The translations under genes and the position numbers were made by a program. From contig NZ_CP035492.1 of assembly GCF_004135365.1 (NCBI RefSeq), positions 496,001 to 560,000 on the forward strand: 64,000 nucleotides of DNA, in the 5' to 3' direction. The notes below the pieces were generated by a model. The model made no database searches. It saw nothing but the letters and a program-made list of their open reading frames with translations, and was not told the origin of the DNA. Position 1 is the first letter of the stretch, and every line of letters starts with the position of its first letter. Source of the DNA: Paenibacillus protaetiae (GTDB lineage Bacteria; Bacillota; Bacilli; Paenibacillales; Paenibacillaceae). This document shows positions 1,525-33,910 of this stretch, piece by piece.

Positions 1525-1558
1525 CCGGTTGTGCGCAGCAAGGGAGGGGCGTCGGTTC

Positions 1559-8441: not shown

Positions 8442-10714
8442 AGAGCCGCAAACTTCCGATTACTGCCATCGCCAAGGCCGCAACGACGGCCGTTCTGCTG
8501 CTCTTGATCGGCTGGATCGCGCTGCAAATATGGAGCCCGTGGGGCGGACAAAAAACGAATATTGCTCAGGCAACCGCCCAGTTCGATAACAAAGGCGAGT
8601 TGTACAAGGCGGTTGTCCCGCAGGATTCGGGCTTCGAAACCGCTGCGGAAAACGATAAGCTGAAGCTGCTTGTCGACCGTTCGACGTCGCATTTTCAAGT
8701 TGTGGATAAAGCGACCGGCACCATCTGGCGTTCATACCCCGATCCGCAGGAATGGCCGAAAGAAACAGCGACGGGCACATGGAAAAATCATTTGCTGTCG
8801 CCGATTCTGATCGAATATGTCAATGCCAAAAACTATAAGTCCTCTTCCTTTACGGCTGGGCTTGTGGACACCGGCGGATATTTGGAGCAGTTCCGGCTGA
8901 TGGAGGGGGGATTTGCAGTTACGTTCGCTTTTCCAAAGGCGCAAATCAAAATTCCGGTGGAAGTATCGTTGCACCCGGATTATGTGGAGACGCGAATTAT
9001 CGACTCGGGGATTGTTGAAGGCGATTTAAGCCTGCTGAATGTGAAGCTGTATCCGCTGTTCGGCGCGGAGCCTTATGTCGGGCAGGACGGCTACATTATG
9101 ATCCCCGACGGTTCAGGATCGCTGATCCGGTTCGGCGACAAGCGGATTATGCCGCAGCTGACGTACAACGAAAGCGTGTACGGGTCGGATTTGTCGTTTT
9201 ACAACGAGGAGACGGGCAGACAGCGGATTACGATGCCGGTGTACGGCTTAAAATCAGGCAGCCAGTCGTTCTTGTCGATCATAACCGAAGGCGATGCCTA
9301 CGCAAACGTATATGCAGCGCCAGGAGGTGCGGTCGGAAGATCCAATTGGGTAACGACGGAATGGCAATACCGGAAAAAATTTTACCAGACGGTCAGCAAA
9401 AATACGGGAGAAGGTTTCTACACGTACAGCAGTGAAAGATTCACGTCACAAGGCAGGGCAACCCGTTATTATCCGCTCACGGGCGACAAAAGCGATTACG
9501 CGGGCATGGCCGCGGTCTACCGCAACTATTTGATGACGGAGCAAGGGGTGAAGCCGGTGCAGTCGGCAAAGCCGGACATTCCGCTGTATTTGGATATCGT
9601 CGGGGCAGATATTAAAAAAGGGCTGTTTTCCGATTCGTACTTGAAGGCAACGACTACAGACGAAGCTGCATCGCTGCTGAAAGATGTGTACGGCCTGGGC
9701 ATTCATAATGTACAGGTGCATTACGAAGGCTGGCAGCAGAACGGGTACAGCTCGCAAGGCGGCTATTTTCCGGTTGATAAACGAATTGGCGGAAACAGCG
9801 GCATGAAACGGTTTATTGATTTTGCCCATTCGCTTGGCATCCCGGTTTATCTGACTGCGAATTATACGCTGAATACGAATGGGGACGACGGATTCTGGTG
9901 GAGAAGAGACGGGCTGCGCAATATGGCGGGTACGGTGCTGAAGGAAGAGACGAAGGAGCAGCAGGACGATCAGGACGATGCAACGTACGTCAGTCCCGGG
10001 TTTTACGCGAAAGTCGTACGTTCCGATCTGAACCAATATAAAAAACTGGGTGCGGACGGCATCTACTTCGAAAATGGCATCGGATCGCAGCTTAATACCG
10101 ACTTCAATAACCAGTATAAGGCCAGCCGAAGCGATTCTGCCGGCATTCAGGCCGATTTGCTGAAGCAAACCAAAGAAACGCTTGGTTCTGCTGCAGCGAG
10201 CAATGTCAATTTTTATGCTTTGGGAGAGGTGGATCAAGTCCACCAGCTCGCCAGCGATTATTCGTATGATGTGTTCGTCACTGAACCGATTCCATTCTCG
10301 GCGATTGTGCTGCACGGCTTGCGGCCATATACGCTGGAGTGGTCCAATGTGCGGGATGAATGGCAAAGCGGGTTTCTCCGGAGCATCGAATACGGCGCTT
10401 CCCCCGCCTATATTCTGAGCGGAGATCAATCGGAAGATATGCGCGAGTCGTATTCGTTATGGTATTACAGCCTGGATTACAAAGATTGGATCAGCCGGAT
10501 ATCGGATGAATATGAACAAATGAATGCGGTGCTTGCCGAAGTGAAGGACCGTGCCATTACCGAACACCGGACTATAGCGCCGGGCGTGAAGGAAACGGTA
10601 TACGAAGGCGGTTACCGCGTGCTGGTGAACTACAACGAACAACCCTATGAGAGCGGCGGACTTTCCGTTCCGGCGCTCGGCTACACGGTGAAGAAAGGCG
10701 GAGAGGCGCAATGA
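8438..10714 (+). CDS. DUF5696-like membrane-anchored protein, possible glycoside hydrolase
   Basis: GTG 8438 overlaps the previous stop by four bases, so translation is probably coupled. The 758-residue protein has one N-terminal membrane anchor (about 11-30) and is otherwise extracellular. Residues 360-660 read like a TIM barrel: IPLYLDIVGADI, then GIHNVQVHYEGW, SLGIPVYLTANY, KLGADGIYFENG and YDVFVTEPIP end successive strands, with acidic residues in plausible catalytic places. I associate this pattern with the DUF5696 family of Paenibacillus sugar operons, from memory. Hydrolase activity is inference; no named catalytic pair can be assigned. Confidence 0.7.
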   Translation: MKSRKLPITAIAKAATTAVLLLLIGWIALQIWSPWGGQKTNIAQATAQFDNKGELYKAVVPQDSGFETAAENDKLKLLVDRSTSHFQVVDKATGTIWRSYPDPQEWPKETATGTWKNHLLSPILIEYVNAKNYKSSSFTAGLVDTGGYLEQFRLMEGGFAVTFAFPKAQIKIPVEVSLHPDYVETRIIDSGIVEGDLSLLNVKLYPLFGAEPYVGQDGYIMIPDGSGSLIRFGDKRIMPQLTYNESVYGSDLSFYNEETGRQRITMPVYGLKSGSQSFLSIITEGDAYANVYAAPGGAVGRSNWVTTEWQYRKKFYQTVSKNTGEGFYTYSSERFTSQGRATRYYPLTGDKSDYAGMAAVYRNYLMTEQGVKPVQSAKPDIPLYLDIVGADIKKGLFSDSYLKATTTDEAASLLKDVYGLGIHNVQVHYEGWQQNGYSSQGGYFPVDKRIGGNSGMKRFIDFAHSLGIPVYLTANYTLNTNGDDGFWWRRDGLRNMAGTVLKEETKEQQDDQDDATYVSPGFYAKVVRSDLNQYKKLGADGIYFENGIGSQLNTDFNNQYKASRSDSAGIQADLLKQTKETLGSAAASNVNFYALGEVDQVHQLASDYSYDVFVTEPIPFSAIVLHGLRPYTLEWSNVRDEWQSGFLRSIEYGASPAYILSGDQSEDMRESYSLWYYSLDYKDWISRISDEYEQMNAVLAEVKDRAITEHRTIAPGVKETVYEGGYRVLVNYNEQPYESGGLSVPALGYTVKKGGEAQ

Positions 10715-11565
10715 AAAGGCTGGAGGCCAAAACGCTCCGCAAGCTGGAAGGATCAATGTTCATTGCGCCGTGGGTGTTCGGCTTTCTGACATTCGTGGCA
10801 TTCCCGCTTGGCTACTCGCTCTTCATGAGCTTTCATCAAGTTAAAATCGAAGTGAACCGAACCGAGTACACGTATATCGGTTTCAAACATTACAGGGAAA
10901 TTCTGGTTGCTAACGGCAGCCTGCTGTATGAGGAATTGATTCCGTTCTTGAAGCAGTCGCTTATGATGATCCCGATCATACTCGTCTTTTCCTTGTTTGT
11001 GGCTATACTGCTGAACTTGAAATTTCCGGGCCGGACGTTGTTTAGAGTCATATTTTTCCTGCCGGTCATCTTCTCATCGGGGCAAATCGTGCAGGAGTTT
11101 ATTACACAAGGCGAAGGTTCGCTTAGCATGATGCAGTCGCTGCGGATCGATTATTATTTGAAGGAATATATGCCTGCGGCCTGGGCGTCGCCGATCGAAA
11201 GCGTGTTGAGCTCCTTTGTGCTCGTGTTGTGGTATTCCGGCGTGCAAATTTTGATTTTTCTCGCCGGCAGGCAGACGCTTTCGGCATCGGTTTATGAGGC
11301 TTCTCGGATCGACGGCTCCAATCCGTGGAACACGTTTTGGCAAATTACGCTGCCGGGTCTCGTGCCTTATATATTTCTGAACCTGATGTATACGGTTGTC
11401 GATCTGTTTACGTTCCCTTCCAATCCTATCATCAGCAAGGTCAATACGACGAATTACGGCAGTTCGAGCGCACTCGCGTGGATCTATTTCGTCATCATTA
11501 TGGCGTTTGTTTTGCTGACGCTCCTGCTTTATCGAAAAGTAGATAAGGCATTATCGGGCAGATAA
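10711..11565 (+). CDS. Sugar ABC importer permease, first subunit (pair 2)
   Basis: The start overlaps the previous gene by four bases (ATGA), again indicating coupling. The 284-residue product has a first span around FIAPWVFGFLTFVAFPLGY, further hydrophobic segments, and an EAA loop EASRIDGSNPWNTFW near residue 195. It is the first half of a second permease pair in the same operon, which is unusual because only one binding protein and one ATPase are encoded here. Confidence 0.92.
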   Translation: MKRLEAKTLRKLEGSMFIAPWVFGFLTFVAFPLGYSLFMSFHQVKIEVNRTEYTYIGFKHYREILVANGSLLYEELIPFLKQSLMMIPIILVFSLFVAILLNLKFPGRTLFRVIFFLPVIFSSGQIVQEFITQGEGSLSMMQSLRIDYYLKEYMPAAWASPIESVLSSFVLVLWYSGVQILIFLAGRQTLSASVYEASRIDGSNPWNTFWQITLPGLVPYIFLNLMYTVVDLFTFPSNPIISKVNTTNYGSSSALAWIYFVIIMAFVLLTLLLYRKVDKALSGR

Positions 11566-11588: not shown

Positions 11589-12563
11589 GTGAAGATCGAG
11601 AGAGGCCGGCCGGGGTTCCTGACCGATTGGCGGCCGAATGCCAAGCTGAGAAGCCGCCTGGAGCTGCTTCGCTACCGCGTGCTGGGAACGGAGATCGACA
11701 AGGGCATTTTGTTCAAGCTGGTTGTCTATTTTGTGCTCATTAATGTTGCATTCATCTATCTGAAGCCGATTTTGTATATGGTTACGACGATGGTGAAAGA
11801 CGCCAAGAACATACTCGATCCGTCGGTAATCTGGGTGCCGAAGTCCATATATTTGGGGCATCTGCAAGAAGCAAGCCATATGCTCAATTACGGAAAAAGC
11901 TTTCTTATCAGCGTGTCGCTTGCCACATCCGTCTCCGTGCTGCAAATGTTCTCGTGCGCTATTGCGGGATATGCATTCGCCAGGCTGGATTTTCCGCTGA
12001 AAAAGCTGTGGGGCGCGCTGCTGCTGTTCACATTTATTATGCCGCCGCAGGTTACGATTCTGCCGACGATTATGCTGTTCAAGCAGTTCGGCTGGATGAA
12101 TACCTTCCTGCCGATGGTAGTGCCGGCGTTATTCGGACACGGGCTAAAAGGTGCGATGTTCGTCATTATTTACCGGTCATTTTATTCCACGCTGCCGAAG
12201 GAGCTTGATGAAGCGGCCCGAATCGACGGTGCCGGGATGCTGCGGATGTTTTTCCGCGTCATGTTTCCGATCTCGCGGTCTGCGACGGTTGTAGTGCTGC
12301 TGTTCGCTTTCGTTTGGAACTGGAACGACTTCTACTTCCCGTCGCTGTTTATGTTCACAGCTGAGAATGTGCCGCTCTCCATTACGCTTGCGCGTATGGC
12401 CGGGGAGATGGAGCAAGCTGCCGGTGCGGGTGAAATAACCGTGTATGCGGAATCGATCAAGATGGCGGCTTCGTTCCTGATCATCATGCCGCTGCTGGTT
12501 GTTTATCTCTTTATGCAGCGCTGGTTCATCGAAGGCGTGGAACGTTCCGGGCTTGTGGAATAA
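11589..12563 (+). CDS. Sugar ABC importer permease, second subunit (pair 2)
   Basis: GTG 11589 is preceded by GAGGTGATAGGAA. The 324-residue product carries a longer than usual cytoplasmic N-terminus (about 50 residues before the first span at FKLVVYFVLINVAFIYL), then five more spans and the EAA loop EAARIDGAGMLRMFF at about 207. It is the last gene of the importer operon; a hairpin follows at 12644. It should form the channel with the permease encoded just before it. Confidence 0.92.
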   Translation: MKIERGRPGFLTDWRPNAKLRSRLELLRYRVLGTEIDKGILFKLVVYFVLINVAFIYLKPILYMVTTMVKDAKNILDPSVIWVPKSIYLGHLQEASHMLNYGKSFLISVSLATSVSVLQMFSCAIAGYAFARLDFPLKKLWGALLLFTFIMPPQVTILPTIMLFKQFGWMNTFLPMVVPALFGHGLKGAMFVIIYRSFYSTLPKELDEAARIDGAGMLRMFFRVMFPISRSATVVVLLFAFVWNWNDFYFPSLFMFTAENVPLSITLARMAGEMEQAAGAGEITVYAESIKMAASFLIIMPLLVVYLFMQRWFIEGVERSGLVE

Positions 12564-12643
12564 TCTGCAGCGGAACAGGGTGTCGTTTTGCTTCAATTCC
12601 AACTAATTTCATAGGTATAACACGTATATTGTTAATCTACCGG

Positions 12644-12687
12644 ATAACCGGAGGTTGCTGACAAGCGGCTTCCGGTTATTTGTGTTT
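12644..12687 (+). terminator. Probable terminator of the importer operon
   Basis: ATAACCGGA (12644-12652) pairs with TCCGGTTAT (12671-12679), followed by the T-rich TTGTGTTT. The U-tract is broken, so termination may be partial. The right arm overlaps the candidate promoter of the next operon. Confidence 0.5.
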
Positions 12688-12698
12688 CAGATTATAAA
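12670..12698 (+). promoter_or_regulatory. Candidate promoter of the monooxygenase operon
   Basis: A -10-like TATAAA (12693-12698) lies 17 bases after TTCCGG (12670-12675), a weak -35. It is about 30 bases ahead of the first LLM gene, whose ribosome site AGAGGTGTGAT ends near 12721. No riboswitch motif (SAM, T-box) was recognised in the 160-base leader. Confidence 0.35.
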
Positions 12699-12726: not shown

Positions 12727-14043
12727 ATGAGCGAAAACGGACGAAAAGTTCATTTGAACGTATTTCTGAGACCGACCGGACACCACGCCGGCGCTTGGCG
12801 CCACCCGGATTCAAAACCTGAATTGGAGCTGGACATTGACTATGTGGCTCAGCTGGCGCAGCTCGCAGAGCGTGGCAAGCTCGACTCGGTGTTCCTTGCA
12901 GACGGTTATGCAGGAGGCGGCAGCAAGCTGGAGCCGTTTACGATGTTATCCGCACTCGCTTCCGTCACAAGCCATATCGGTCTGATTGCAACGGTTGGAA
13001 CGGTTTATAACGAGCCTTTTCACGTCGCGAGGCAGTTTGCGTCGCTGGATCACATTAGCGGCGGGCGCGCAGGCTGGAACATTGTAACCGGAGCGGGCTC
13101 GGCAGCACACAACTTCGGCAGAGACGAACATCCCGAACATTCCGAACGATACGACACGGGCGAAGAGTTCGTTGAGGTCGTTAAGCAGTTGTGGGACAGC
13201 TGGGAAGACGATGCGCTTATCTACGATAAAGTGAATGGACGGCTGACGGCTCCAGGCAAGGTCCATGAGATTAACTTCAAAGGCCACACCTATTCGGTGA
13301 AAGGGCCGCTTAATATTCCGCGTCCGCCGCAAGGCTATCCGGTGCTCGTTCAAGCCGGCTCCTCCGAACGGGGCAAGGAACTGGCAGCCAAAACTGCGGA
13401 AGTGATCTTCACAGCCCAGCAAACGTTTGACGCCGGCCGCGAGTTTTATGCGGACGTCAAATCAAGGCTTGCCAAATACGGGCGGACGGCCGATGAGTTA
13501 GTTATCCTGCCGGGACTTGCGCCAATCGTTGCCGATACGGAAGCCGAAGCGAAGGAGATCGAAGCAGAGCTTCATGCTTATGTCGATACGAGCCGCGCGC
13601 TGCGTAACCTGTCCGAGCGCTTCACGGTCAACCTGGCCGACTACGATCTTGATGATCTGGTTCCTCTCGATAAAGCGAAGCCGTCCGAGGAATTTAACGG
13701 CATTCGCAGCCGGCAGGAAGTTGTGCTCGATGCGGCAAGACGGGAAGGCTTTACGATCCGCCAGCTGCTGTATCGCAGCAACGGCGGGCACGGGCATGTT
13801 ACTTTCACCGGATCGGTGCTGCAAACAGCCGATTTTATTGAGAAGTGGTTCAACAACCATGCGGCGGACGGTTTCAACATCCTCCCGCAACTCGTTCCGA
13901 CAGGGCTTGAAACATTCATTGACAAGGTGATTCCGGAACTTCAGAACCGCGGCTTGTTCCGGACGGAATACGAAGGCACAACGCTGCGTGAAAACTTAGG
14001 GTTGAAAAGGCCGGCGAATGTAAGACATTTGCAGCGGCAATAA
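12727..14043 (+). CDS. LLM-class flavin-dependent monooxygenase, NtaA/SnaA/DszA family (copy 1)
   Basis: The 438-residue protein matches the length of the NtaA/SnaA/DszA branch of the luciferase-like fold: two-component FMNH2-dependent monooxygenases that act on small N- or S-containing organic molecules. The N-terminal LNVFLRPTGHHAGAW, the central FASLDHIS and GRAGWNIVTG, and IPRPPQGYPVLVQAGSS are family hallmarks. They need reduced flavin from a partner reductase; the NfrA-like protein encoded at 18229 could supply it. It heads an operon with two closely related copies and two binding lipoproteins. The substrate is not predictable; association with a cysK gene points weakly to sulfur. Confidence 0.93.
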   Translation: MSENGRKVHLNVFLRPTGHHAGAWRHPDSKPELELDIDYVAQLAQLAERGKLDSVFLADGYAGGGSKLEPFTMLSALASVTSHIGLIATVGTVYNEPFHVARQFASLDHISGGRAGWNIVTGAGSAAHNFGRDEHPEHSERYDTGEEFVEVVKQLWDSWEDDALIYDKVNGRLTAPGKVHEINFKGHTYSVKGPLNIPRPPQGYPVLVQAGSSERGKELAAKTAEVIFTAQQTFDAGREFYADVKSRLAKYGRTADELVILPGLAPIVADTEAEAKEIEAELHAYVDTSRALRNLSERFTVNLADYDLDDLVPLDKAKPSEEFNGIRSRQEVVLDAARREGFTIRQLLYRSNGGHGHVTFTGSVLQTADFIEKWFNNHAADGFNILPQLVPTGLETFIDKVIPELQNRGLFRTEYEGTTLRENLGLKRPANVRHLQRQ

Positions 14044-14065
14044 AACAGTGAGGTGGAGTGCCTAT

Positions 14066-15442
14066 ATGATAAAAAAACTTGCTGGAACGATGAGCATGAT
14101 CGTTATGACGGCCGCTCTTTTGGCTGCTTGCGCCGGCGGCGCCGCAAACGGCGGTACGCAGCAGCAGTCTGCGGACGCCGGTGCGGCCGGAACGGATGAC
14201 GGGGCAAGCGGAGCGATTAAGAAACTTGGCGATGAACCGTTGACGCTGACGTTTTATTCCAGCGGTCCGACATTTACGGATGTCGAATTCAAAACGATGA
14301 TTGCCGATCCGATTCATAAGAAATATCCGAATGTTACGATCCAGCGTATTTCGCCGGCTGCAACCACAACGCCGGAGGAAGTGCTGTCCACGCAAACGCC
14401 GGACATTTTGTTCACGAGCGTATCGCAGCGGCTTATCCGTACGGGAGCCTTCGAAGATTTACGCGGCTTGATCAAGAAGTTTAACTTTGACGAAAGCCGG
14501 CTGAAGCCTATCGCCTATAACTACATCAAAGATGCGACCAAAGGCCATGGCGATCAGATCTATGCGCTTCCGTTCAATGTGAATCAGCACATTTTGTACT
14601 ATAACAAGGACATTTTCGATAAATTTGGCGTTCCGTACCCAACCGACAAACAAATGACCTGGGATGAAGCGGTTGAGCTTGGCAAACAGCTGACGCGTAC
14701 GGACAACGGCGTCAATTATGTCGGTCTTGTAGTAGATAACTTGCAAGGCCTCGCCAAGTCGCTTGGTCTGGCCTATGTAGACCGCGAGACCGGGCAGGCG
14801 GCGATTGATACGCCGGAGTGGCACCGCGTGTTCGAATTGCAAAAGAAAATATTCGATACTCCGGGTTATGTCGCTCCTGACGGCACTTGGAACTGGACGC
14901 GCGACAACTTTATGAAAGACCAGAACATTGCGATGCGCGCTTCATGGCTTGCAAATATGGTTGGTCCGCTTGAGGAGCTGCGGCAGCAAGGCGTCGAGTT
15001 CAACTGGGACATTGCGCCTGTTCCGAACTTTGACGATAAGCTGGGCACGACCAGGGAGGCGCAAATCCACTCGATCTCGATCAACAGCCAAAGCAAACAT
15101 AAGGATGAAGCATTCCAGGTGCTGGAATATTTGCTGTCGGATGAAGGCCAGCGGACAATCGCCAGAAACGGGCGTGTACCAGCCATTATTAATCCGGATC
15201 TTGAAAAGGAGTTTGGGGCGGATATCCCGGTACTGCAAGGCAAAAACGTACAAAACGTATTTATCGGCAACCCGATGCAGGAGCATTACCAGCATCCGTA
15301 CGAAGCCGATATTTCGGTTCGGCTGACCGAAGCGGCCGAGGGCATGGCGATTCATGGACTTGATGTAAACTCTGCAATCCGCCAGGCGACGGAAGCGATC
15401 AATAAGGATGTTGAAACGTTAAAAACGACGATCGGCCAATAA
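14066..15442 (+). CDS. Family-1 extracellular solute-binding lipoprotein (copy 1)
   Basis: ATG 14066 is nine bases from AGGTGG; an in-frame GTG at 14048 lies before the ribosome site. The 458-residue product has a signal peptide with lipobox LLAAC, a low-complexity linker, then a family-1 binding-protein fold (LTLTFYSSG, VLYYNKDIFDKFGVPYP written here with NQH before it, and WLANMVGPLEELRQQG). It would capture a small molecule outside the membrane. No permease or ATPase gene adjoins it, which is odd. It is clearly a paralogue of the product of the gene at 16832, and each follows an LLM gene. Confidence 0.92.
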   Translation: MIKKLAGTMSMIVMTAALLAACAGGAANGGTQQQSADAGAAGTDDGASGAIKKLGDEPLTLTFYSSGPTFTDVEFKTMIADPIHKKYPNVTIQRISPAATTTPEEVLSTQTPDILFTSVSQRLIRTGAFEDLRGLIKKFNFDESRLKPIAYNYIKDATKGHGDQIYALPFNVNQHILYYNKDIFDKFGVPYPTDKQMTWDEAVELGKQLTRTDNGVNYVGLVVDNLQGLAKSLGLAYVDRETGQAAIDTPEWHRVFELQKKIFDTPGYVAPDGTWNWTRDNFMKDQNIAMRASWLANMVGPLEELRQQGVEFNWDIAPVPNFDDKLGTTREAQIHSISINSQSKHKDEAFQVLEYLLSDEGQRTIARNGRVPAIINPDLEKEFGADIPVLQGKNVQNVFIGNPMQEHYQHPYEADISVRLTEAAEGMAIHGLDVNSAIRQATEAINKDVETLKTTIGQ

Positions 15443-15466
15443 TGGCTAATAAAAGGAGGAAATGCG

Positions 15467-16789
15467 ATGAGTGAAGCAAAACGTCAACTGCATTTAAACG
15501 CGTTTTTGTTCGGCACGGGGCATCATGAAGCCTCCTGGCGCCTTCCCGATGCCCAGCCGGAGAAAAACCTGGATTTTAACCATCTGCTTCGTATTGTACA
15601 AACGGCCGAGCGAGGGCTGCTCGATTCCGTTTTTCTGGCAGACGGATATGTCGGACGTTCTAACAAACTAGAGCCGTTCACAGAGCTTTCCGCGCTGGCA
15701 AGCCGCACGAAGCATATCGGTTTGATCGCCACCGTAGGCACGACCTACAACGAACCGTTTCACGTCGCACGCAAATTTGCATCGCTGGATCATATCAGCA
15801 AAGGCCGCGCAGGATGGAATATCGTGACAGGCGCCGGTTCCGCCGCTCATAACTTCGGATTAGAGGAGCACCCCGAGCATTCCTTGCGGTATGAAGATGC
15901 CGACGAGTTCGTCGAAGTGACGAAGCAGCTGTGGGACAGCTGGGAGGATGATGCTGTCCTGAATGATAAGGCATCCGGCAAGCTGTACGATCAGGACAAA
16001 ATTCACAAAATTGATTACGAAGGCCAGTACTACAAAGTGCAAGGGCCGCTTAACATCGCCCGGCCGCCGCAAGGTTATCCGGTTCTCGTACAGGCGGGTT
16101 CCTCCGAAAGCGGCAAGGAGTTTGCAGCGAAAGTGGCGGAAGTCATATTCACCGCTCACCAAAGCATCGAAAGCGCCCAGCTGTTCTACCATGATGTTAA
16201 ATCCCGCCTTGCCAAATACGGGAGAACGCATGATGAGCTGAAAATATTGCCGGGAATTAGCCCGATATTGGCTGAGACGGAAGCGGAAGCCAAGGAAATC
16301 GAAGATCAGCTGTTTGAATTCATTGATAAAGACGAAGCGGTCCGGCGGCTGTCGGAACGCCTCGGCGTGGATTTGTCCGCCCGTTCCCTTGACGCGCCGC
16401 TGACGCTGGAAGGATTACGGTCCACGGATGAAGTGAACGGCAACAAAAGCCGCCATCAGCTCATTCTTGATCTTATCCGCGACGAGCAGCTTTCTTTGAA
16501 GCAGCTTATCAATCGCTTGGGCGGCGCGCGCGGGCATTTTACATTCACGGGAACGCCGATTCAACTGGCGGATAAGATTGAAGAATGGTTTACGCATGGC
16601 GCTGCAGACGGATTTAACGTCATGCCCCAAGTATATCCAAGCGGCCTTGACATCTTCGTCAATCGTGTTGTGCCGGAGCTGCAGAACCGGGGACTGTTCC
16701 GAACCGCTTATGAAGGAAATACGCTCCGCGACAGGCTTGGCTTGAAGCGTCCGGAGAACGCCCGCCGCTGGGCGAAAGCCTTGCAATAA
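15467..16789 (+). CDS. LLM-class flavin-dependent monooxygenase, NtaA/SnaA/DszA family (copy 2)
   Basis: AAAGGAGGAAATGCG precedes the ATG. The 440-residue protein aligns along its full length with the other two LLM enzymes of the operon and shares GRAGWNIVTG, LWDSWEDDA and PPQGYPVLVQAGSSE. The region after residue 300 is the most divergent, which in this family shapes the substrate pocket, so the copies may act on different substrates. It forms a repeated two-gene unit with the binding lipoprotein that follows. Confidence 0.93.
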   Translation: MSEAKRQLHLNAFLFGTGHHEASWRLPDAQPEKNLDFNHLLRIVQTAERGLLDSVFLADGYVGRSNKLEPFTELSALASRTKHIGLIATVGTTYNEPFHVARKFASLDHISKGRAGWNIVTGAGSAAHNFGLEEHPEHSLRYEDADEFVEVTKQLWDSWEDDAVLNDKASGKLYDQDKIHKIDYEGQYYKVQGPLNIARPPQGYPVLVQAGSSESGKEFAAKVAEVIFTAHQSIESAQLFYHDVKSRLAKYGRTHDELKILPGISPILAETEAEAKEIEDQLFEFIDKDEAVRRLSERLGVDLSARSLDAPLTLEGLRSTDEVNGNKSRHQLILDLIRDEQLSLKQLINRLGGARGHFTFTGTPIQLADKIEEWFTHGAADGFNVMPQVYPSGLDIFVNRVVPELQNRGLFRTAYEGNTLRDRLGLKRPENARRWAKALQ

Positions 16790-16831
16790 TAGGGTCAACC
16801 AATACGAACATCTAAGGGAGAGAGTACGGTA

Positions 16832-18205
16832 ATGAAGAAAGTCATTTATGGAATCGTGACGATTTTGCTGCTATCGGTTCTAACCGCATGCGGCAGCAAT
16901 GAAGAGGACAATAACGGCGTTAGCGCCGCAACGAAGCCGGGGAATGCCTCGGCAGGGGAAGGACAGCCGGCATCCGGCGAGCATGTGCTGGGCAGCAAAC
17001 CGCTGAAGCTGACGTTTTACAGCACGAGCGGGACGCTTCCGGATACTGAGTTCAAGACGCTGATTGCGGATCCGATTCATGCCAAATATCCGAACGTGAC
17101 CATAGAGCGAATTACGCCGGCTGCGACAACGACAGCGGAAGAAGTGCTTACAACGCATGAACCCGACATCATCTATTCGACTTCAACAACGCACCAGCAA
17201 ATTATCCGCACAGGCGCATATGAAGACCTGCGGGATTTGATCGACAAATACCAGTTCGATACAAGCCGCATTAAGCCTATTCTGTGGAATTATATCAAAG
17301 ACCTTGGCAAAAACGGGGAAATCTATGCGATTCCGTTTAACTCGAACCAGCATGTGCTTTATTACAACAAAGACATCTTTGATAAATTCGGCGTCGAATA
17401 TCCGCCTAATGAGCAGCTGACATGGGATCAAGTGCTGGAAATCGCGAAAAAACTGACCCGAACGGACAACGGCGTCCATTACGTCGGTTTGTCGGTCGAC
17501 AATTTAACGGGCTTGGCCAAAGGCCTCGGGCTGCCTTATTTGGACCGCGAAACGGGCAACGCCGCAATTGATACGCCGGAATGGCACCGGATATTCGATT
17601 TGGAAAAACAAATATTCGATATTCCGGGTTATGTTTCGCCAGATGGCGTATGGGATTACGGGCGTGATCAATTCATGAAGGATCAGACTGTAGCGATGCG
17701 TGTCACTTGGCTTGCGAACATGGTTGGCCCGCTGGAGGAATTGCGCCAGCAAGGCGTCGAGTTTAACTGGGATATTGCTCCGGCTCCGAACTTTGAAGAT
17801 CAGCTGGGCAAAACAAGAGAAGCGCAAATCCAATCGTTGTCGATCAATTCCCAAAGCAAACATAAAGAAGAAGCTTTCCAAGTTATTGCAGAAATTTTGT
17901 CGGACGACGGACAACGGATTTTGTCGCGTAACGGCAGGGTGCCGGCCATTACCAATCCGGATCTTGAGAAGGAATACGGGCTGGATATTCCGGTGCTGCA
18001 AGGCAAAACCGTTCAGAACGTATTTGTCGGCGAGCCGCTGCAGGAGCATTATTTCCATCCGTACGAAAACGATATTTCGGTTCGTCTGACTGAAGCGGCT
18101 GAAGATTTGGCGATCCATGGCCTGGATGTGAATTCAGCGATACGCAAAGCAACGGATGCGATCAACAAAGATGTCGAATCACTTCGCCAGACAATCGGAC
18201 AATAA
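16832..18205 (+). CDS. Family-1 extracellular solute-binding lipoprotein (copy 2)
   Basis: The 457-residue product starts at an ATG after AAGGGAGAGAGT and has a signal peptide with lipobox LTAC. It resembles the product of the gene at 14066 throughout (LKLTFYSTSGTLPDTEFKT, WLANMVGPLEELRQQG, SVRLTEAAE). The ligand-contacting N-lobe differs in places (STSTTHQQI against SVSQRLI), so the ligands may be related but not identical. Like its paralogue it has no adjacent permease. It would need to share a permease encoded elsewhere, or act as a sensor. Confidence 0.92.
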   Translation: MKKVIYGIVTILLLSVLTACGSNEEDNNGVSAATKPGNASAGEGQPASGEHVLGSKPLKLTFYSTSGTLPDTEFKTLIADPIHAKYPNVTIERITPAATTTAEEVLTTHEPDIIYSTSTTHQQIIRTGAYEDLRDLIDKYQFDTSRIKPILWNYIKDLGKNGEIYAIPFNSNQHVLYYNKDIFDKFGVEYPPNEQLTWDQVLEIAKKLTRTDNGVHYVGLSVDNLTGLAKGLGLPYLDRETGNAAIDTPEWHRIFDLEKQIFDIPGYVSPDGVWDYGRDQFMKDQTVAMRVTWLANMVGPLEELRQQGVEFNWDIAPAPNFEDQLGKTREAQIQSLSINSQSKHKEEAFQVIAEILSDDGQRILSRNGRVPAITNPDLEKEYGLDIPVLQGKTVQNVFVGEPLQEHYFHPYENDISVRLTEAAEDLAIHGLDVNSAIRKATDAINKDVESLRQTIGQ

Positions 18206-18228
18206 TTGAACGCGACCAGGAGGAGAAC

Positions 18229-18981
18229 ATGAACGATACCATTCGCTTGCTGCGGGCACACCGCTCCATACGCAAGTATAAGAATGATCCCGTCACAGAC
18301 GGGCATTTGCAGCAAATTGCACTAGCCGCACAGGCGGCGCCAACGTCTTCTAATATTCAAGCGTACAGCGTTGTTGCCGTAAGGGACACGAACCGCAAGC
18401 AAGTGCTTGCAGGCCTGGCCGGAAACCAGAAGCAGATCGAAGAAAGCCCGCTGTTCCTTGTGTGGCTTGCCGATCTGAATAAAATTCAGACGGCCGTAAG
18501 GCTGCATGAGGATTCCAAGCTGCATCAGAACACGGAATTGTTCCTGCTCGCAACGATCGACGCGACGCTTGCGGCGCAAAATGCCGTTATTGCGGCGGAG
18601 TCGCTTGGTTACGGAACGGTCTACATCGGCGGCATCCGCAACAATCCGGGGGCTGTAAGCGAGCTTCTAGAGCTGCCTCCGCTTGTATATCCTGTATTCG
18701 GATTATGCGTAGGGGTGCCGGACCAAGAGCCGGATATCCGGCCGCGGCTGCCGATTGGCGCATTTTTGCATGAGGAGATGTACCAGAATGGCCGGGTTGC
18801 CGGCGCGATCGAGGAGTATGACGCTACAACCCGTACGTATTATGCCACCCGTAAAGGCGGGGGCAAAGGCGGCGAGACGGAAACAAGCTGGTCGCGCGAG
18901 ATGGTGCGGCGTTTCGACGGCGGCCGGCTGCGCGGACATATGCGAAGTTTTCTGCAAGACCGCGGTTTCGATTTGAACTAG
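18229..18981 (+). CDS. NADPH-dependent FMN oxidoreductase / nitroreductase (NfrA-like)
   Basis: AGGAGG precedes the ATG. The 250-residue protein begins RAHRSIRKYKNDPV, the FMN-binding N-terminus of NfrA/Frp-type nitroreductases, and contains AAPTSSNIQAYSV and AAESLGYGTVYIGGIRN, both typical of this group. Such enzymes reduce free FMN with NADPH. Lying between LLM genes it is the natural candidate for the reductase partner of the three monooxygenases. That pairing is inference from position. Confidence 0.9.
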   Translation: MNDTIRLLRAHRSIRKYKNDPVTDGHLQQIALAAQAAPTSSNIQAYSVVAVRDTNRKQVLAGLAGNQKQIEESPLFLVWLADLNKIQTAVRLHEDSKLHQNTELFLLATIDATLAAQNAVIAAESLGYGTVYIGGIRNNPGAVSELLELPPLVYPVFGLCVGVPDQEPDIRPRLPIGAFLHEEMYQNGRVAGAIEEYDATTRTYYATRKGGGKGGETETSWSREMVRRFDGGRLRGHMRSFLQDRGFDLN

Positions 18982-19016
18982 CGCAACCGTGCGATTCTAT
19001 TAAAGAGGTGCATAAG

Positions 19017-20390
19017 ATGAGCGGATTTAATCAACGTAAGCAGGCCCATTTTAACGTCTTTATGCGGGGAGCGGGGCATCATTCGGCTGCCTGGAAGCAT
19101 CCCGATTCCAATCCGCAGGACGATCTTAGTCTCGAATATTATGCAGAGATTGCAAGAATCGCGGAGAGAGGGCTGTTCGACTCGCTGTTTATGGCGGATA
19201 ACTATTCGGGACTCGGCCGAAGGCTGGAGCCGTTCACGCTGCTTTCTGCGCTGGCAGCCCTCACGAAGCATGTCGGGTTCATTGCGACGGTAAGCACTAC
19301 GTACAATGACCCGTACCACGTGGCGAGAAAATTCGCTTCGCTGGATCACATCAGCAAAGGCAGAGCGGCTTGGAATATTGTAACCGGTCATTCCCGGGAG
19401 GATGCCGACAATCTTTCCAGGCCGGAGCATCCCGATGTATCTACCCGGTACGAGATCGGGGAGGAGTTCGTTGAAATTACGAAGCAGCTGTGGGACAGCT
19501 GGGAAGAGGACGCCCTCATCTACGATCGGGATAACGACGTGGCGATTGACCGGAGCAAAGTGCATGAGATTAACTTCAAAGGAAAACATTACCAAGTCAA
19601 AGGGCCTTTAAACATCCCAAGGCCGCCGCAAGGTTATCCGGTGCTTGTACAGGCCGGCTCATCGGAAGGCGGCAAGGAGCTTGCAGCGAAGACGGCTGAA
19701 GTAATTTTCACAGCTCAGCAAACACTCGGCGCCGCTCAGCAGTTTTACGGAGATGTGAAGGCTCGCCTCGCCAAATACGGCCGCAAGCCGGAACAGCTGC
19801 TTATCATGCCGGGACTTTGCCCGATCGTGGCCGATACCGAAGCGGAAGCCCGGGATATCGAAGACGAATTTAACGCTTTGCTTAACCCGAAACAAGCGCT
19901 TCGCAGGCTTTCCAATTACTTCACCGTCGATCTGACCGAATATTCGCTGGATGATCTGGTTCCGGTCGACAAAGCCAAACCTTATGGCTCCATCACATCC
20001 GGCATCACGAGCAGGCAAGAGGTAGTCGTTGACGCTGCGGTCCGGGATAAGATGACGCTCCGGCAATTTATCGCCCGAAGCGCAGCCGGCCACGGCCATG
20101 TGTCGTTTACGGGTTCGGTGCTGCAGACGGCTGATTTTATTGAGAAATGGCTGCTTGAGAATGGCGCAGACGGGTTTAATATTTTGCCTCATCTTTATTT
20201 CAGCGGTTTCGAAACGTTTGTCGATAAGGTGGTGCCGGAACTGCAAAACCGGGGGCTGTTCCGCACGGCGTATGAAGGAAAAACGCTTCGCGACAACTTG
20301 GGACTGGAGCGTCCGGTTAACCGGAACCGGGAAGTATGGGCAGCAGCCAAAGAAGCGCAGAAACAGCTGGCTAATAGCAGCCAAGCTTAA
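19017..20390 (+). CDS. LLM-class flavin-dependent monooxygenase, NtaA/SnaA/DszA family (copy 3)
   Basis: An in-frame GTG at 19008 is part of the ribosome site AAAGAGGTG, so ATG 19017 is the start. The 457-residue protein is homologous to the other two copies, with FNVFMRGAGHHSAAW, FASLDHISKGRAAWNIVTG and PPQGYPVLVQAGSSEGG. The GAGSAAHNF loop of copies 1 and 2 is HSREDADNL here, and the C-terminal tail is longer. This copy is therefore the most divergent and is not followed by a binding protein. Confidence 0.93.
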   Translation: MSGFNQRKQAHFNVFMRGAGHHSAAWKHPDSNPQDDLSLEYYAEIARIAERGLFDSLFMADNYSGLGRRLEPFTLLSALAALTKHVGFIATVSTTYNDPYHVARKFASLDHISKGRAAWNIVTGHSREDADNLSRPEHPDVSTRYEIGEEFVEITKQLWDSWEEDALIYDRDNDVAIDRSKVHEINFKGKHYQVKGPLNIPRPPQGYPVLVQAGSSEGGKELAAKTAEVIFTAQQTLGAAQQFYGDVKARLAKYGRKPEQLLIMPGLCPIVADTEAEARDIEDEFNALLNPKQALRRLSNYFTVDLTEYSLDDLVPVDKAKPYGSITSGITSRQEVVVDAAVRDKMTLRQFIARSAAGHGHVSFTGSVLQTADFIEKWLLENGADGFNILPHLYFSGFETFVDKVVPELQNRGLFRTAYEGKTLRDNLGLERPVNRNREVWAAAKEAQKQLANSSQA

Positions 20391-20420
20391 ATCGTACGAA
20401 CCATAAAGGGAGGAATGAAG

Positions 20421-21386
20421 ATGTCAGTTCAATATCGTTCATTAGGTGCAAGCGGGTTAAAGGTAAGCGAGATCAGCCTGGGCAGTTGGCTCACATACGG
20501 CGGTTACGTAGAAAGGGAAAATGCGGTGCTTTCGATCCGCAAAGCATATGAGCTTGGCATTAATTTTTTTGATACGGCGAACGTTTATGCAAAAGGCGAA
20601 GCGGAGCGTGTCGTTGGCGAGACATTGCAAGATTATGAACGTTCGTCTTATGTGCTTGCCACCAAAGTATACGGCAAAATCGGGGACGGTCCAAACGACC
20701 GCGGACTTTCCCGCAAGCATGTTATCGAATCGGTGAATGCAAGCTTGAAACGGCTTGGACATGATTACATTGATATTTTGTACAGTCACCGTTTCGACGT
20801 GAACACGCCGTTAGAAGAAACGCTCCGCGCCTTCGACGATCTGGTTCGCCAGGGCAAAGTGCTGTATATCGGGGTCAGCGAGTGGACGGCTGCGCAAATT
20901 ACGGAAGCCTTTGCGATAGCGGATAAATATTTGCTCGATAAAATCGTCGTTAACCAGCCGATCTACAACTTGTTCGAGCGTTATATCGAAAAAGAAATTA
21001 TTCCGCTTGGCGAGAAAAAAGGATTCGGGCAAGTCGTGTTTTCGCCTTTGGCGCAAGGCATATTGACGGGCAAATATACAGCGGGGTCTATCCCAGCCGA
21101 TTCGCGCGCCGAGAAACAGGACAATTTCAAAAACAAGCTGACGGAAGAGAAGCTTGCAAAGGTAGCGTTGCTGCAAGATATTGCCCGCGAACAGGGGATT
21201 ACGGTCAGCCAGCTGTCGCTTGCCTGGATTCTCCGGCAGCCAAACGTTGCAAGCGCTCTTGTTGGAGCAAGCCGTCCCGAGCAAGTAGAAGAGAATGCCC
21301 AAGCGTCCGGCATCCTGCTGGATGAAGAAACGATTGCCCGCATCTCAAACGTATTGAATAACGAACCGGCAAACGTACGGGGCTAA
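20421..21386 (+). CDS. Aldo/keto reductase, Kv-beta/YghZ-like
   Basis: AAAGGGAGG at 20406-20413 suits ATG 20421 rather than the ATG two codons earlier. The 321-residue barrel carries the expected tetrad: Asp and Tyr in FFDTANVYAKGEAE, Lys in LATKVYG, and His in DILYSHRFD. The pattern YIGVSEW and IYNLFERYIEKEIIPL is that of Kv-beta-like reductases. It closes the monooxygenase operon, 30 bases after copy 3, and a strong terminator follows. It may reduce an aldehyde or ketone released by the monooxygenases. Confidence 0.93.
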   Translation: MSVQYRSLGASGLKVSEISLGSWLTYGGYVERENAVLSIRKAYELGINFFDTANVYAKGEAERVVGETLQDYERSSYVLATKVYGKIGDGPNDRGLSRKHVIESVNASLKRLGHDYIDILYSHRFDVNTPLEETLRAFDDLVRQGKVLYIGVSEWTAAQITEAFAIADKYLLDKIVVNQPIYNLFERYIEKEIIPLGEKKGFGQVVFSPLAQGILTGKYTAGSIPADSRAEKQDNFKNKLTEEKLAKVALLQDIAREQGITVSQLSLAWILRQPNVASALVGASRPEQVEENAQASGILLDEETIARISNVLNNEPANVRG

Positions 21387-21456: not shown

Positions 21457-21507
21457 CCCTAGATGCCGATACGTTTACTTTAAAACAAGCGGGAAGTGAT
21501 TATTTTA

Positions 21508-23277
21508 TTGAAACCGGCAAATCCGAAACTGATTAGAAGCTTTTTTTTGAAGACGTGGCCGATTTATGCTTTATCGCTTTTCTTTCATTTTGTATCGAAC
21601 TGGATTAACGTCAATGTCCCGAAAGTGTTGGGGAAATTCACCGATCAGCTGCAGCAGGGCAGCCTGACGCATGACAGCGTCATTTCGTACAGTCTGCTGC
21701 TGCTTGCAATCGGCATCGGCCAGGTGTTATTTAACGGCGGCGCTACCTATTTGGTCATGTATATCGGCAGAAAATTCGAATATCACTTGCGGCAGCGGTT
21801 GTTCAGCCATTTTACGCAAATGAGCGAGCGTTTTTATTCCAACAACGGGGTAGGCCGGCTGCTCAGCTATTTTATGAATGATGTGACGGCAGTCCGCGAG
21901 TCGATCTCGATGGGATTTAACGCTACAGCCAATGCGGCCATGCTGCTTACGGCTGCCGTAACCATGATGATCACAAGCGGCATTCCGCTGTATCTCATTG
22001 CCGCCTCCGTATTTCCTCTGCTGCTGATTCCATTTATCGTCGTATACCTCGGTCCGGTCATTCGAAGAAGATCGCTCGCCGTGCAGGAATCGCTTGGCCG
22101 GATGACGGAGCTGGCGGAGGAGCAGTTCGGCGGCGTACGCGTGACGAAGAAGTTCGCTGCCGAAGATATTATGGAGCGGCGTTTTAATGCATCGGTTGAC
22201 GAAATTAGCCGTAACCAGCTCCGGCTTGTACGGGTATCTTCGCTTTTTCAGGCGCTCATTCCGTATCTTGGGACGATTGCGCTTATTACGGCGCTTGCGT
22301 TTGGCGGCTACTTGCTGATTCACGGTCCTATTACGCTTGGCAATTTCGTCGCCCTTACATTATACGTTCGGATGCTGATGAATCCGCTCCAGCAGATTGG
22401 CAACGTCATAAATTCGATTCAGCGTTCCCGCGCATCATTGGAGCGGCTGAACGGCTTGCTCGGGCAGCAATCCGAAATCGTGGAGGCGGATGATGCCCAA
22501 ACGGTGAACTTGGCGGCAGCGGAGCTTCGCATCCGCGACTTGACGTTTGCTTACAATCCCGGGTCACAGCCTGTGCTTCAGCATATCCGGCTGACATTAA
22601 AACCGGGGCAGACGCTTGGCATCGTCGGGCGCACCGGCAGCGGCAAAACTACGCTGATGAAGCTGCTGCTTCGCATGTACGATCCGCCGGCCGGTTGCAT
22701 CAAGTTTGGCAATACCGACATCCGGGACTTGACCCTTGAAAGCTTGCGCAGCCAGATTGCTTATGTGCCGCAGGACGGCTTCCTGTTCAGTACGACCATC
22801 CGCGAGAACATTGCGTTTCATAACCGGGAAGCTAAGCTATGCAAAGTGAAGACAGCGGCCAAGCAAGCGCAAATTTACGACAATATCGCGGAGCTTCCCG
22901 GCAGTTTCAACACGAGGCTCGGGGAGCGCGGCCTGACGCTTTCCGGCGGACAGCGCCAGCGAACCAGCCTGGCAAGAGGGCTCATAAAGAATGCGCCGCT
23001 GTTAATACTTGACGACAGCGTCAGCGCCGTCGATACCGTAACGGAAAAAGAAATTATCGCGTCGATACGCAGAGAAAGAGCGGATAAGACCACCATTATT
23101 ATCGCGCATCGGATAAGCGCGCTTAAACACGCCGATGTCATCCTGGTGCTGGATGAAGGCGCAATCGTCCAGAAGGGCACACATGAGCAGCTGCTGCGCG
23201 AGCCTGGATTATATGCGGAGCTTTATGCCATACAAGAGGAGGGCCTTCACCATGCGACCGGCACAAGCTATTCATAA
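21508..23277 (+). CDS. yheI: Heterodimeric ABC exporter, degenerate-site subunit (YheI/BmrC-like)
   Basis: TTG 21508 is chosen because GGGAAGTGAT (21491-21500) is a good ribosome site for it; the upstream in-frame GTG at 21496 is inside that site. The 589-residue protein has six membrane spans and an ATPase domain with Walker A GRTGSGKTT (about 375), signature LSGGQ (about 477) and Walker B LLILDDS (about 500). The usual catalytic Glu after Walker B is Asp, the mark of the degenerate half of BmrCD-type exporters. It works with the product of the overlapping next gene. Likely role: efflux of drugs or a toxic product. Confidence 0.9.
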   Translation: MKPANPKLIRSFFLKTWPIYALSLFFHFVSNWINVNVPKVLGKFTDQLQQGSLTHDSVISYSLLLLAIGIGQVLFNGGATYLVMYIGRKFEYHLRQRLFSHFTQMSERFYSNNGVGRLLSYFMNDVTAVRESISMGFNATANAAMLLTAAVTMMITSGIPLYLIAASVFPLLLIPFIVVYLGPVIRRRSLAVQESLGRMTELAEEQFGGVRVTKKFAAEDIMERRFNASVDEISRNQLRLVRVSSLFQALIPYLGTIALITALAFGGYLLIHGPITLGNFVALTLYVRMLMNPLQQIGNVINSIQRSRASLERLNGLLGQQSEIVEADDAQTVNLAAAELRIRDLTFAYNPGSQPVLQHIRLTLKPGQTLGIVGRTGSGKTTLMKLLLRMYDPPAGCIKFGNTDIRDLTLESLRSQIAYVPQDGFLFSTTIRENIAFHNREAKLCKVKTAAKQAQIYDNIAELPGSFNTRLGERGLTLSGGQRQRTSLARGLIKNAPLLILDDSVSAVDTVTEKEIIASIRRERADKTTIIIAHRISALKHADVILVLDEGAIVQKGTHEQLLREPGLYAELYAIQEEGLHHATGTSYS

Positions 23278-25063
23278 CTGGCAGATGGATCAGAAAACCG
23301 AACCGAACATGCCGGAACAAAAACCGCAATATGTATCCGCATTCCGTACGCTGCTGCGTTATATTAGGCCGCATCTTGTTTCATTCGGGCTGGTCTTCCT
23401 GTTTACGGTCATTGCCATTTTGTCGGATTTGCTGCAGCCGTATTTGATGAAAATCGCCATCGACGATAATCTGATCGTCGGCCATAACGACTACCGGGGT
23501 TTGCTGCTCATATGCGCTGCTTATTTCGCCTTATCGGCGACCAGTTTTCTGTTTACGTATTTACAGAATAATCTGCTGCAGCGGGTGGGGCAAAGCATCG
23601 TCGGATTAATCCGGAAGCAGCTGTTCAGCCATATTTTAAGGCAGTCGATGCGTTATTTCGACCGGATGTCGTCAGGCAGCCTTATTACGCATATTTCAAG
23701 CGATACGGAAGCTTTGAATCAATTTTTTAATCAAGTGCTGCTTAGCCTGTTCCGGGACGGCTTGACGCTGATCCTCATTGTTGTATTGATGTTTCATCTC
23801 AATGTACAGCTTGCATTGTATTGTCTCGTACTGCTGCCAATCATTATGATAATCGCGATTGCATTCCGGTCGTTCATGCGCACTACTTATCAGCTTGCAA
23901 GGACGCGGCTGTCGCGGATGGTTGCATTCGTAGCGGAAAATTTGGCAGGCATGAACCTTGTGCAGGCATTCCATCAGCAAAGGCAGCAGGAGCAGCATTT
24001 CAACGAACGGAACGGGTTGTATTTTCAAGCGAATATTAGGGAAATCCGGACAAACGTCCTGTTCGGCCGGACGTTTGACGTACTCAGCAATTTATCCATT
24101 GCATTCGTCACCTGGGCCGGCGGAAAGGCTGTCCTGAACGAGAATTTGGAGTTTGGGGTGCTGTATGCCTTCATTACGTATATCCGCCAGTTTTTTCAGC
24201 CGATTAATACGATTACGCAGCAGTGGAATACGCTGCAATCCGCTACGGTCGCCATATCCCGGATATGGACTGTATTTGACAGCGAACCGGATGTGCGAGA
24301 TCCAAAGAAAGCCCCTTCGGGCTGGGACGAAGAAAACATTCGCGGCCGGATCGAATTTGATCGCATTTCATTCGCCTATGAGCCGGATGTGCCGGTCATT
24401 CGTCATTTGCAGCTGACGATCGAGCCAGGCGAAATGATTGGTGTCGTCGGAACTACCGGTGCGGGGAAAAGCTCGCTCATCAGCCTGCTGTGCCGATTCT
24501 ACGACGTTCAGGAAGGGGCCGTCCGGATTGACGGCGTCGATGTCAGACATATTCCGCAAGCATCACTCCATCGGATCATCGGTTTGGTGCAGCAAGATCC
24601 TTACCTGTATTCCGGCAGCATAATTGACAACGTCCGCCTGTTCGACGATTCGGTCAGCCGGGAAGAGGTTATCGCTGCTTGTGAATTTGTAGGGGCAAGC
24701 ACGGTTATCCAGAAGCTTGCAAACGGTTATGATACGAAGCTGTCGGAGAGAGGAAGCGGACTATCGTCCGGCGAGCGGCAGCTGATCTCCTTTGCAAGAA
24801 TTATTGTGTTTAAGCCTAAAGTGCTTATTTTGGACGAGGCCAGCGCCAATTTGGATTCCCAGACGGAGCAGCTGATCCAGAACGCACTGCATGCCGTCTC
24901 CCGGAACCGGACGACGATTGTGATTGCCCATCGGCTGTCAACGATTCAGCAAGCAGACCGCATCCTCGTTATGAGCAAAGGCGAAATCGCCGAAGAAGGC
25001 ACGCATGAGCAATTAATAGAAGCCGGCGGCCATTATTCGCAGCTGTATGAAAATTCCAAATAA
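23252..25063 (+). CDS. yheH: Heterodimeric ABC exporter, catalytic subunit (YheH/BmrD-like)
   Basis: ATG 23252 follows AGAGGAGGG at 23235-23243 and overlaps yheI by 26 bases. The 603-residue protein has six spans from residue 45 on, Walker A GTTGAGKSS (about 402), an altered signature LSSGERQ (about 504) and Walker B LILDEAS with the catalytic Glu. The altered signature here and the missing Glu in its partner together form the one inactive ATP site, as in BmrC/BmrD. The cysK gene follows 50 bases later, possibly in the same transcript. Confidence 0.92.
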   Translation: MRPAQAIHNWQMDQKTEPNMPEQKPQYVSAFRTLLRYIRPHLVSFGLVFLFTVIAILSDLLQPYLMKIAIDDNLIVGHNDYRGLLLICAAYFALSATSFLFTYLQNNLLQRVGQSIVGLIRKQLFSHILRQSMRYFDRMSSGSLITHISSDTEALNQFFNQVLLSLFRDGLTLILIVVLMFHLNVQLALYCLVLLPIIMIIAIAFRSFMRTTYQLARTRLSRMVAFVAENLAGMNLVQAFHQQRQQEQHFNERNGLYFQANIREIRTNVLFGRTFDVLSNLSIAFVTWAGGKAVLNENLEFGVLYAFITYIRQFFQPINTITQQWNTLQSATVAISRIWTVFDSEPDVRDPKKAPSGWDEENIRGRIEFDRISFAYEPDVPVIRHLQLTIEPGEMIGVVGTTGAGKSSLISLLCRFYDVQEGAVRIDGVDVRHIPQASLHRIIGLVQQDPYLYSGSIIDNVRLFDDSVSREEVIAACEFVGASTVIQKLANGYDTKLSERGSGLSSGERQLISFARIIVFKPKVLILDEASANLDSQTEQLIQNALHAVSRNRTTIVIAHRLSTIQQADRILVMSKGEIAEEGTHEQLIEAGGHYSQLYENSK

Positions 25064-33868: not shown

Positions 33869-33910
33869 ATACGTAAGTTCTCCTTTAGGAAACGGTTTGT
33901 GGGAGCAGGT

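Follow-up and report, generated by a model that had tools for sequence, protein, structure and literature searches.

In Bacillus subtilis, flavin-dependent monooxygenases of the NtaA/DmoA family (YtnJ/MoxC and YxeK) take part in sulfur salvage, and the ytmI and yxeK operons that encode them also provide an amino-acid-type ATP-binding cassette (ABC) importer and N-acetylation enzymes. A second related system, sulfo-SMO/ASMO, presumably uses a carbohydrate-type ABC importer with a solute-binding protein (SBP), SmoF, for which there are PDB entries, and the locus described here has an importer of the same type. In sulfo-SMO/ASMO, which has been reported mainly in alpha- and beta-proteobacteria, a monooxygenase dependent on reduced flavin mononucleotide (FMNH2) is followed by a PF00248 reductase (PMC9594981); the ytmI/yxeK operons are controlled by CymR (PMC2743287). 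Here, we analyzed a 64,000-nucleotide stretch of the Paenibacillus protaetiae genome (assembly GCF_004135365.1, contig NZ_CP035492.1, positions 496,001 to 560,000 of the forward strand), referred to as the window, in which seven genes at 12727-21386, all on the + strand, follow the order LLM-SBP-LLM-SBP-NfrA-LLM-AKR, where LLM is a luciferase-like monooxygenase and AKR an aldo/keto reductase. Our results suggest, with a probability that we put at roughly 0.6, that this cassette forms the enzyme part of a single conserved Paenibacillaceae operon devoted to the sulfur-regulated import and C-S cleavage of a sugar-linked or sugar-like organosulfur compound. Like sulfo-SMO/ASMO, the locus brings together a flavin-dependent monooxygenase, a flavin reductase, and a PF00248 aldo/keto reductase in one cluster, and unlike ytmI/yxeK, its importer is of the carbohydrate type, with binding proteins of the SBP_bac_1/8 families, and not of the amino-acid type.

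The gene order comes from the list of open reading frames (ORFs), and the Pfam and NCBIfam families agree with it. LLM1 (12727..14043), LLM2 (15467..16789), and LLM3 (19008..20390) all match Bac_luciferase in Pfam and the NtaA/DmoA model TIGR03860 (530, 536, and 524 bits against a curated cut-off of 279.7), whereas with 72-81 bits the alkanesulfonate monooxygenase models fall well short of their cut-off of 518, so that by family assignment they are FMN-dependent monooxygenases of the NtaA/DmoA type, not the SsuD type. When the PDB sequences are compared, their nearest solved structure is YtnJ/MoxC of B. subtilis (342 bits for LLM1 and 343 bits for LLM2). The NfrA-type NADPH nitroreductase/flavin reductase (18229..18981; NF008033, 226.2 bits against a cut-off of 223) is a candidate supplier of FMNH2 for these enzymes, and the cassette ends with AKR1 (20415..21386; Aldo_ket_red, AKR6D1/Kv-beta-like). 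The relationship to YtnJ/MoxC and the conservation of a cysteine synthase gene, cysK, in the block would also fit the salvage of S-alkyl or other S-modified cysteine derivatives along the lines of Bacillus ytmI/yxeK, with thioether cleavage instead of desulfonation. We consider this unlikely, as the importer is of the carbohydrate type and has a GH129-like partner, and as none of the ORFs in the block was recognisable as encoding an acetyltransferase or a deacetylase.

The two remaining cassette genes, SBP1 (14048..15442; lipobox LLAAC in the translation) and SBP2 (16832..18205), encode sugar-type binding lipoproteins of the SBP_bac_1 family. The AlphaFold2 model of SBP2 (mean predicted local distance difference test [pLDDT] score, 89.3) has the fold of an oligosaccharide binder, and its best structural match is the cycloalternan-binding protein Lmo0181 (Z 36.0). 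The initial annotation had placed these lipoproteins in an operon without any permease, which proved wrong. On the same strand, immediately upstream of the cassette, lie genes for a MalK/UgpC carbohydrate-type importer ATPase (415..1524; ABC_tran, OB_MalK, and TOBE_2), a 1000-aa solute-binding lipoprotein (1529..4531; SBP_bac_1/8, with the SBP domain at about residues 597-877 and no domain assigned to the N-terminal half), the BPD_transp_1 permeases A1 (listed as the ORF 4437..5417, the true start probably lying about 60-120 bases inside it) and A2 (5466..6269), a membrane protein with NHL repeats and a Yip1 domain (6291..8441), a DUF5696 protein (8438..10714; 610 bits), and the BPD_transp_1 permeases B1 (10711..11565) and B2 (11589..12563; UgpE-like, 101 bits). 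Permease B2 directly precedes the cassette and ends 164 bp before LLM1. A second aldo/keto reductase gene, AKR2, lies just outside the window, 5' of the ATPase gene (9250-10320 of locus L039), and heads the transport operon. The MalK-type ATPase with its regulatory OB/TOBE domain and the BPD_transp_1 pairs beside SBP_bac_1 lipoproteins mark the importer as carbohydrate type, and a sugar is predicted as its ligand, bearing in mind that a fold is not a ligand.

The DUF5696 protein has a single N-terminal hydrophobic helix and appears to be membrane anchored, with a fold like that of GH129 glycosidases in a model whose mean pLDDT is only 69. The top structural matches of this model are NagBb and ZgGH129 (Z of about 28 over 510-570 residues, against 18 for the rest), and a profile match to NagBb (E 5.7e-8) covers 128 positions and ends before the catalytic region. 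No sulfoquinovosidase was seen in the block, where no search aimed at one was made.

The arrangement is kept in about 10 other Paenibacillaceae loci. According to tblastn searches, P. kobensis (84-95% identity for most proteins) and P. phyllosphaerae share the same order, with AKR2 at the head and an exporter and cysK at the tail; the ATPase gene is syntenic in both and in genome G162, whose locus spans AKR2 to SBP2. The genes for DUF5696, permease B1, and permease B2 are followed by LLM and SBP genes in P. xylaniclasticus, Bacillus sp. FJAT-28004, Paenibacillus sp. FSL A5-0031, P. luteus, Paenibacillus sp. Soil522, G162, and G401. In P. koleovorans, P. paridis, Cohnella fermenti, and G091, an SBP of the SBP1/SBP2 subfamily stands directly behind permease B2, separated from it by a gap of about 40-150 bp. 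More distant SBP relatives also lie beside such transporters, including three consecutive SBPs after permeases B1 and B2 in G005. Other SBP relatives are repeatedly paired, at three loci, with FAD_binding_2 flavoproteins (fumarate-reductase-like), with cysK near.

Because of this gene order in the window and in relatives, the permeases most probably belong together with SBP1, SBP2, and their counterparts in relatives. It had been proposed that the lipoproteins of orphan LLM-SBP modules serve a distant permease or present the substrate for sensing, and two observations would agree with this: there is no permease between SBP1 and SBP2, and in G323 about 25 kb separate the transporter that carries SBP2 from an SBP1-LLM2-LLM1-NfrA unit that has a leader to itself. 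However, the genes for the permease pairs and the ATPase stand immediately upstream, all close relatives share this synteny, and SBPs of the subfamily follow permease B2 directly where relatives have no intervening LLM, which makes the proposal very improbable. The initial annotation had suggested looking in relatives for conserved LLM-SBP pairs and a nearby permease; permease pairs are syntenic there and are present in this window too. Since matching carbohydrate-type permeases adjoin the lipoprotein genes, neither a permease encoded elsewhere nor a sensing role is needed.

The history of the cassette appears to be less simple than the duplication of a two-gene unit that was first suggested. 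SBP1 and SBP2 are paralogues as claimed (68% identical), while a single LLM-SBP duplication is not established, LLM1 being nearest to LLM3, its sister in the LLM tree (100/99), and LLM3 having no SBP partner. LLM2 groups with LLM2', an extra copy that precedes LLM1 in several relatives, and in the SBP tree the SBP1 clade is nested among SBP2 copies. We likewise could not establish a simple and recent duplication of the pair, given these trees and the order SBP2-SBP1-LLM2-LLM1 in P. hemerocallicola, where SBPs and LLMs form separate tandems. LLM and SBP do not make up a fixed two-gene module, and a two-gene duplication followed by more LLM duplications, such as a later one from LLM1 to LLM3, is a possible course of events.

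Between permease B2 and LLM1 lies a conserved leader (12598..12694, + strand) that consists of a box, a mini-hairpin, ACCGGATAACCGG, and an overlapping terminator hairpin. An alignment of this gap from eight genomes contains the conserved hairpin ACCGGATARCCGGAGRTTGC...GCTCCGGYTATTT, and in most relatives a promoter (TTGACA-17-TAAATT) is found upstream of the leader hairpin. The leader of the window folds with a z of -4.1. As to the original statement that the genes form one operon, the gene order on one strand stands, with the caveat that this terminator-bearing leader separates the last permease from LLM1. Among 87 aligned matches, in an alignment that was fitted to the terminator, 97% of the cells of the terminator stem are paired, and compensatory changes are numerous. 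The second hairpin, CCGG-ANRR-CCGG (4 bp, with a conserved adjacent A), uses the 5' arm of the terminator, so that the two structures are mutually exclusive; 99% of its cells are paired, and changes on one side are mostly matched on the opposite side (three cases of G-C to U-A and one of G-C to A-U), these changes being few and of a kind that a DNA palindrome would produce as well. Of 77 leaders, 11 keep the box with a terminator that makes no use of CCGG. The mini-hairpin alone folds with -5.8 kcal/mol, and the full stretch favours the terminator, with -27.9 kcal/mol; a factor or ligand would therefore be needed for antitermination, which we infer to proceed by competition between the mini-hairpin and the terminator. 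The leader would switch its genes on, with sulfur limitation as the presumed signal.

Several searches delimit what kind of element this could be. No leader RNA of Rfam 15 (S-box, T-box, and others) matches the window at the gathering score, the leader loci have a single such match, to a purine riboswitch at another place in L039, and relaxed thresholds add nothing relevant. The box upstream of the hairpin bears some resemblance to a CymR-type operator. In a set of leaders inspected by eye only, start and Cys codons that would point to a leader peptide as the sensor were not consistently seen. A generic scan for promoters and terminators gave counts within those of shuffled sequences and missed the leader, an exact hairpin pattern in 59 genomes found only cassette copies and one NfrA copy and was too strict for a regulon, and an exact box pattern had zero matches in the P. 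protaetiae genome. The open-licence literature yielded no account of a leader of this kind, and none of DUF5696 in Paenibacillus.

A covariance model of the leader was searched in 394 genomes of the family (E<=0.01) and in a class sample of 299 genomes (E<=1e-4). Matches were obtained in 136 of the former and in two of the latter, namely P. protaetiae itself and one member of the same family. The P. protaetiae genome has two good matches, one before LLM1 and one before AKR2 of the transport operon, and in relatives the leader recurs before NfrA, LLM, and SBP genes. We then read the genes downstream of 60 matches outside or beside the cassette. The first gene encodes an LLM in 11 of them, an AKR accompanied by LLM and SsuA/SsuC-type ABC genes in 5, a sulfate ABC binding protein in another 5, an NMT1/SsuA-type or related ABC protein in about 6 (some with an LLM, and one beside an alkyl-sulfatase-type protein), an FAD_binding_2 protein with a ferredoxin and an HpaB-like protein in 4, a Cys/Met enzyme dependent on pyridoxal phosphate (PLP) in 2, and NfrA in 2. 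Taken together, NMT1/SsuA-type ABC genes with or without LLM and AKR account for about 10 loci. A few matches have other first genes; three of these matches (L263, L268, and L272), which may be due to chance, have no convincing gene close downstream. At eight loci, the leader is followed by an operon of argininosuccinate-lyase-like, amidohydrolase, SBP, and permease genes.

Because the sulfate transporters and the PLP enzyme were absent from the loci on which the model was trained, they independently support the leader as a marker of sulfur acquisition. Together with the relationship of the LLMs to YtnJ/MoxC and the retention of cysK at the end of the block, this supports the sulfur-containing substrate that the initial annotation had suspected. 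It also bears on the view that the locus is an ordinary glycan utilisation operon whose LLMs act on a group without sulfur (C-N or C-H) and whose sulfur genes are near incidentally. The glycan-type transporter and DUF5696 do occur without LLMs at three loci in other relatives, and relatives of the LLM family include nitrilotriacetate and alkane monooxygenases, but both units of the locus are preceded by the leader that also stands in front of sulfate and sulfonate transporters, and we regard this view as quite unlikely. Whether the leader represents an undescribed class of cis-regulatory RNA, in which the hairpin competes with the terminator and, via a factor, turns on a Paenibacillaceae sulfur-acquisition regulon that includes a pathway for desulfurising a sugar-type organosulfur compound, appears to us evenly balanced.

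Our results lead us to propose the following scheme, in which substrate, chemistry, and sulfur flow are deduced from gene families and gene order. Cells limited for sulfur would express an importer composed of the ATPase, two permease pairs, and one large and two small binding lipoproteins, which together with the membrane-anchored GH129-like protein would bring a sugar-linked or sugar-like organosulfur compound into the cell. NfrA would provide FMNH2, with which the three NtaA/DmoA-type LLMs could cut the C-S bond to release sulfite or a thiol and a carbonyl product; AKR1 and AKR2 would reduce the carbonyl product, and the sulfite or thiol would enter cysteine synthesis at the level of CysK. 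Expression would be controlled by the leader that the operon has in common with other sulfur genes of the family, the mini-hairpin and the terminator excluding each other.

Several observations weigh against this import-and-desulfurise scheme. NtaA/DmoA enzymes act on C-N and other bonds too, and no SmoF-specific signal emerged from the fold search with SBP2: SmoF gives E 1.9e-6 in the sequence comparison, and its structural match (Z 29.3, against 36.0 for the top match) is no better than those of dozens of oligosaccharide binders. The internal leader of the window has no recognisable -35 element. Among the 60 leader matches, an argininosuccinate-lyase-like gene with an amidohydrolase and an SBP gene comes first in 10 and a hydroxyisobutyrate-dehydrogenase-like gene in 4, neither of which is obviously related to sulfur; as a guess, the argininosuccinate-lyase-like enzyme might act on an S-succinylated compound. 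Finally, cysK (25114..26057, + strand) is broken near 25470-25482 into two overlapping frames (25114-25482 and 25479-26057), through an error in the sequence or a genuine frameshift; P. kobensis and P. phyllosphaerae have the gene with an unbroken frame, and it is kept at the block end in close relatives.

Between the cassette and cysK lie the genes for the two halves of an ABC exporter (21496..23277 and 23180..25063, + strand; ABC_membrane and ABC_tran in both), the first of which is kept at this place in relatives. Farther downstream, on the - strand, an ORF for an MMPL-type transporter (31466-34525; 800 aa) adjoins one for a TetR-like regulator, both recognised by eye from their translations. 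A 1519-aa protein, possibly a defence protein, is encoded at 39130-43689 (- strand) in a stretch of 34-40% G+C and has a weak match to PDC-M54A in PADLOC (51 bits), and a 406-aa transposase-like ORF of the mutator/IS256 type, as judged by eye, is located beside the low-G+C stretch (48216-49436, - strand). Upstream of the window, L039 contains, at 4346-5382 and 6043-6146, a CRISPR-like repeat array with cas-like ORFs near and the purine riboswitch (RF00167), which precedes a phosphoribosyltransferase/permease pair.

In place of orphan binding proteins, the proposed scheme would have a complete and conserved import-and-desulfurise operon. This suggests that Gram-positive soil bacteria may gain sulfur from sugar-type organosulfur compounds with enzyme types other than those of proteobacteria, and the leader could serve as a handle on the sulfur regulon of this large family, whose members are associated with soil and plants.

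The locus can be set beside described systems. It differs from sulfo-SMO/ASMO in having three monooxygenases of the NtaA/DmoA type where an SsuD-type enzyme is found there, NfrA in the place of SsuE, a GH129-like protein, and a host that belongs to the Bacillota; because the monooxygenase family differs, we have not assigned the operon to sulfo-SMO/ASMO. The importer resembles CUT1 importers of the MalFGK2 type in its MalK OB/TOBE ATPase, its BPD_transp_1 pairs, and its SBP_bac_1 lipoproteins, and departs from them in combining one ATPase with two permease pairs and three SBPs and in the accompanying NHL/Yip1 and DUF5696 proteins. The leader, just as the RNA antiterminator (RAT) of the BglG/SacY type and ANTAR targets (PMC3369931), has a small hairpin that overlaps the 5' arm of a terminator and excludes it, but its sequence and size (CCGG-ANRR-CCGG) are different and without counterpart in Rfam. 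The operon may be a variant of a known logic, and its leader may be a new regulatory RNA.

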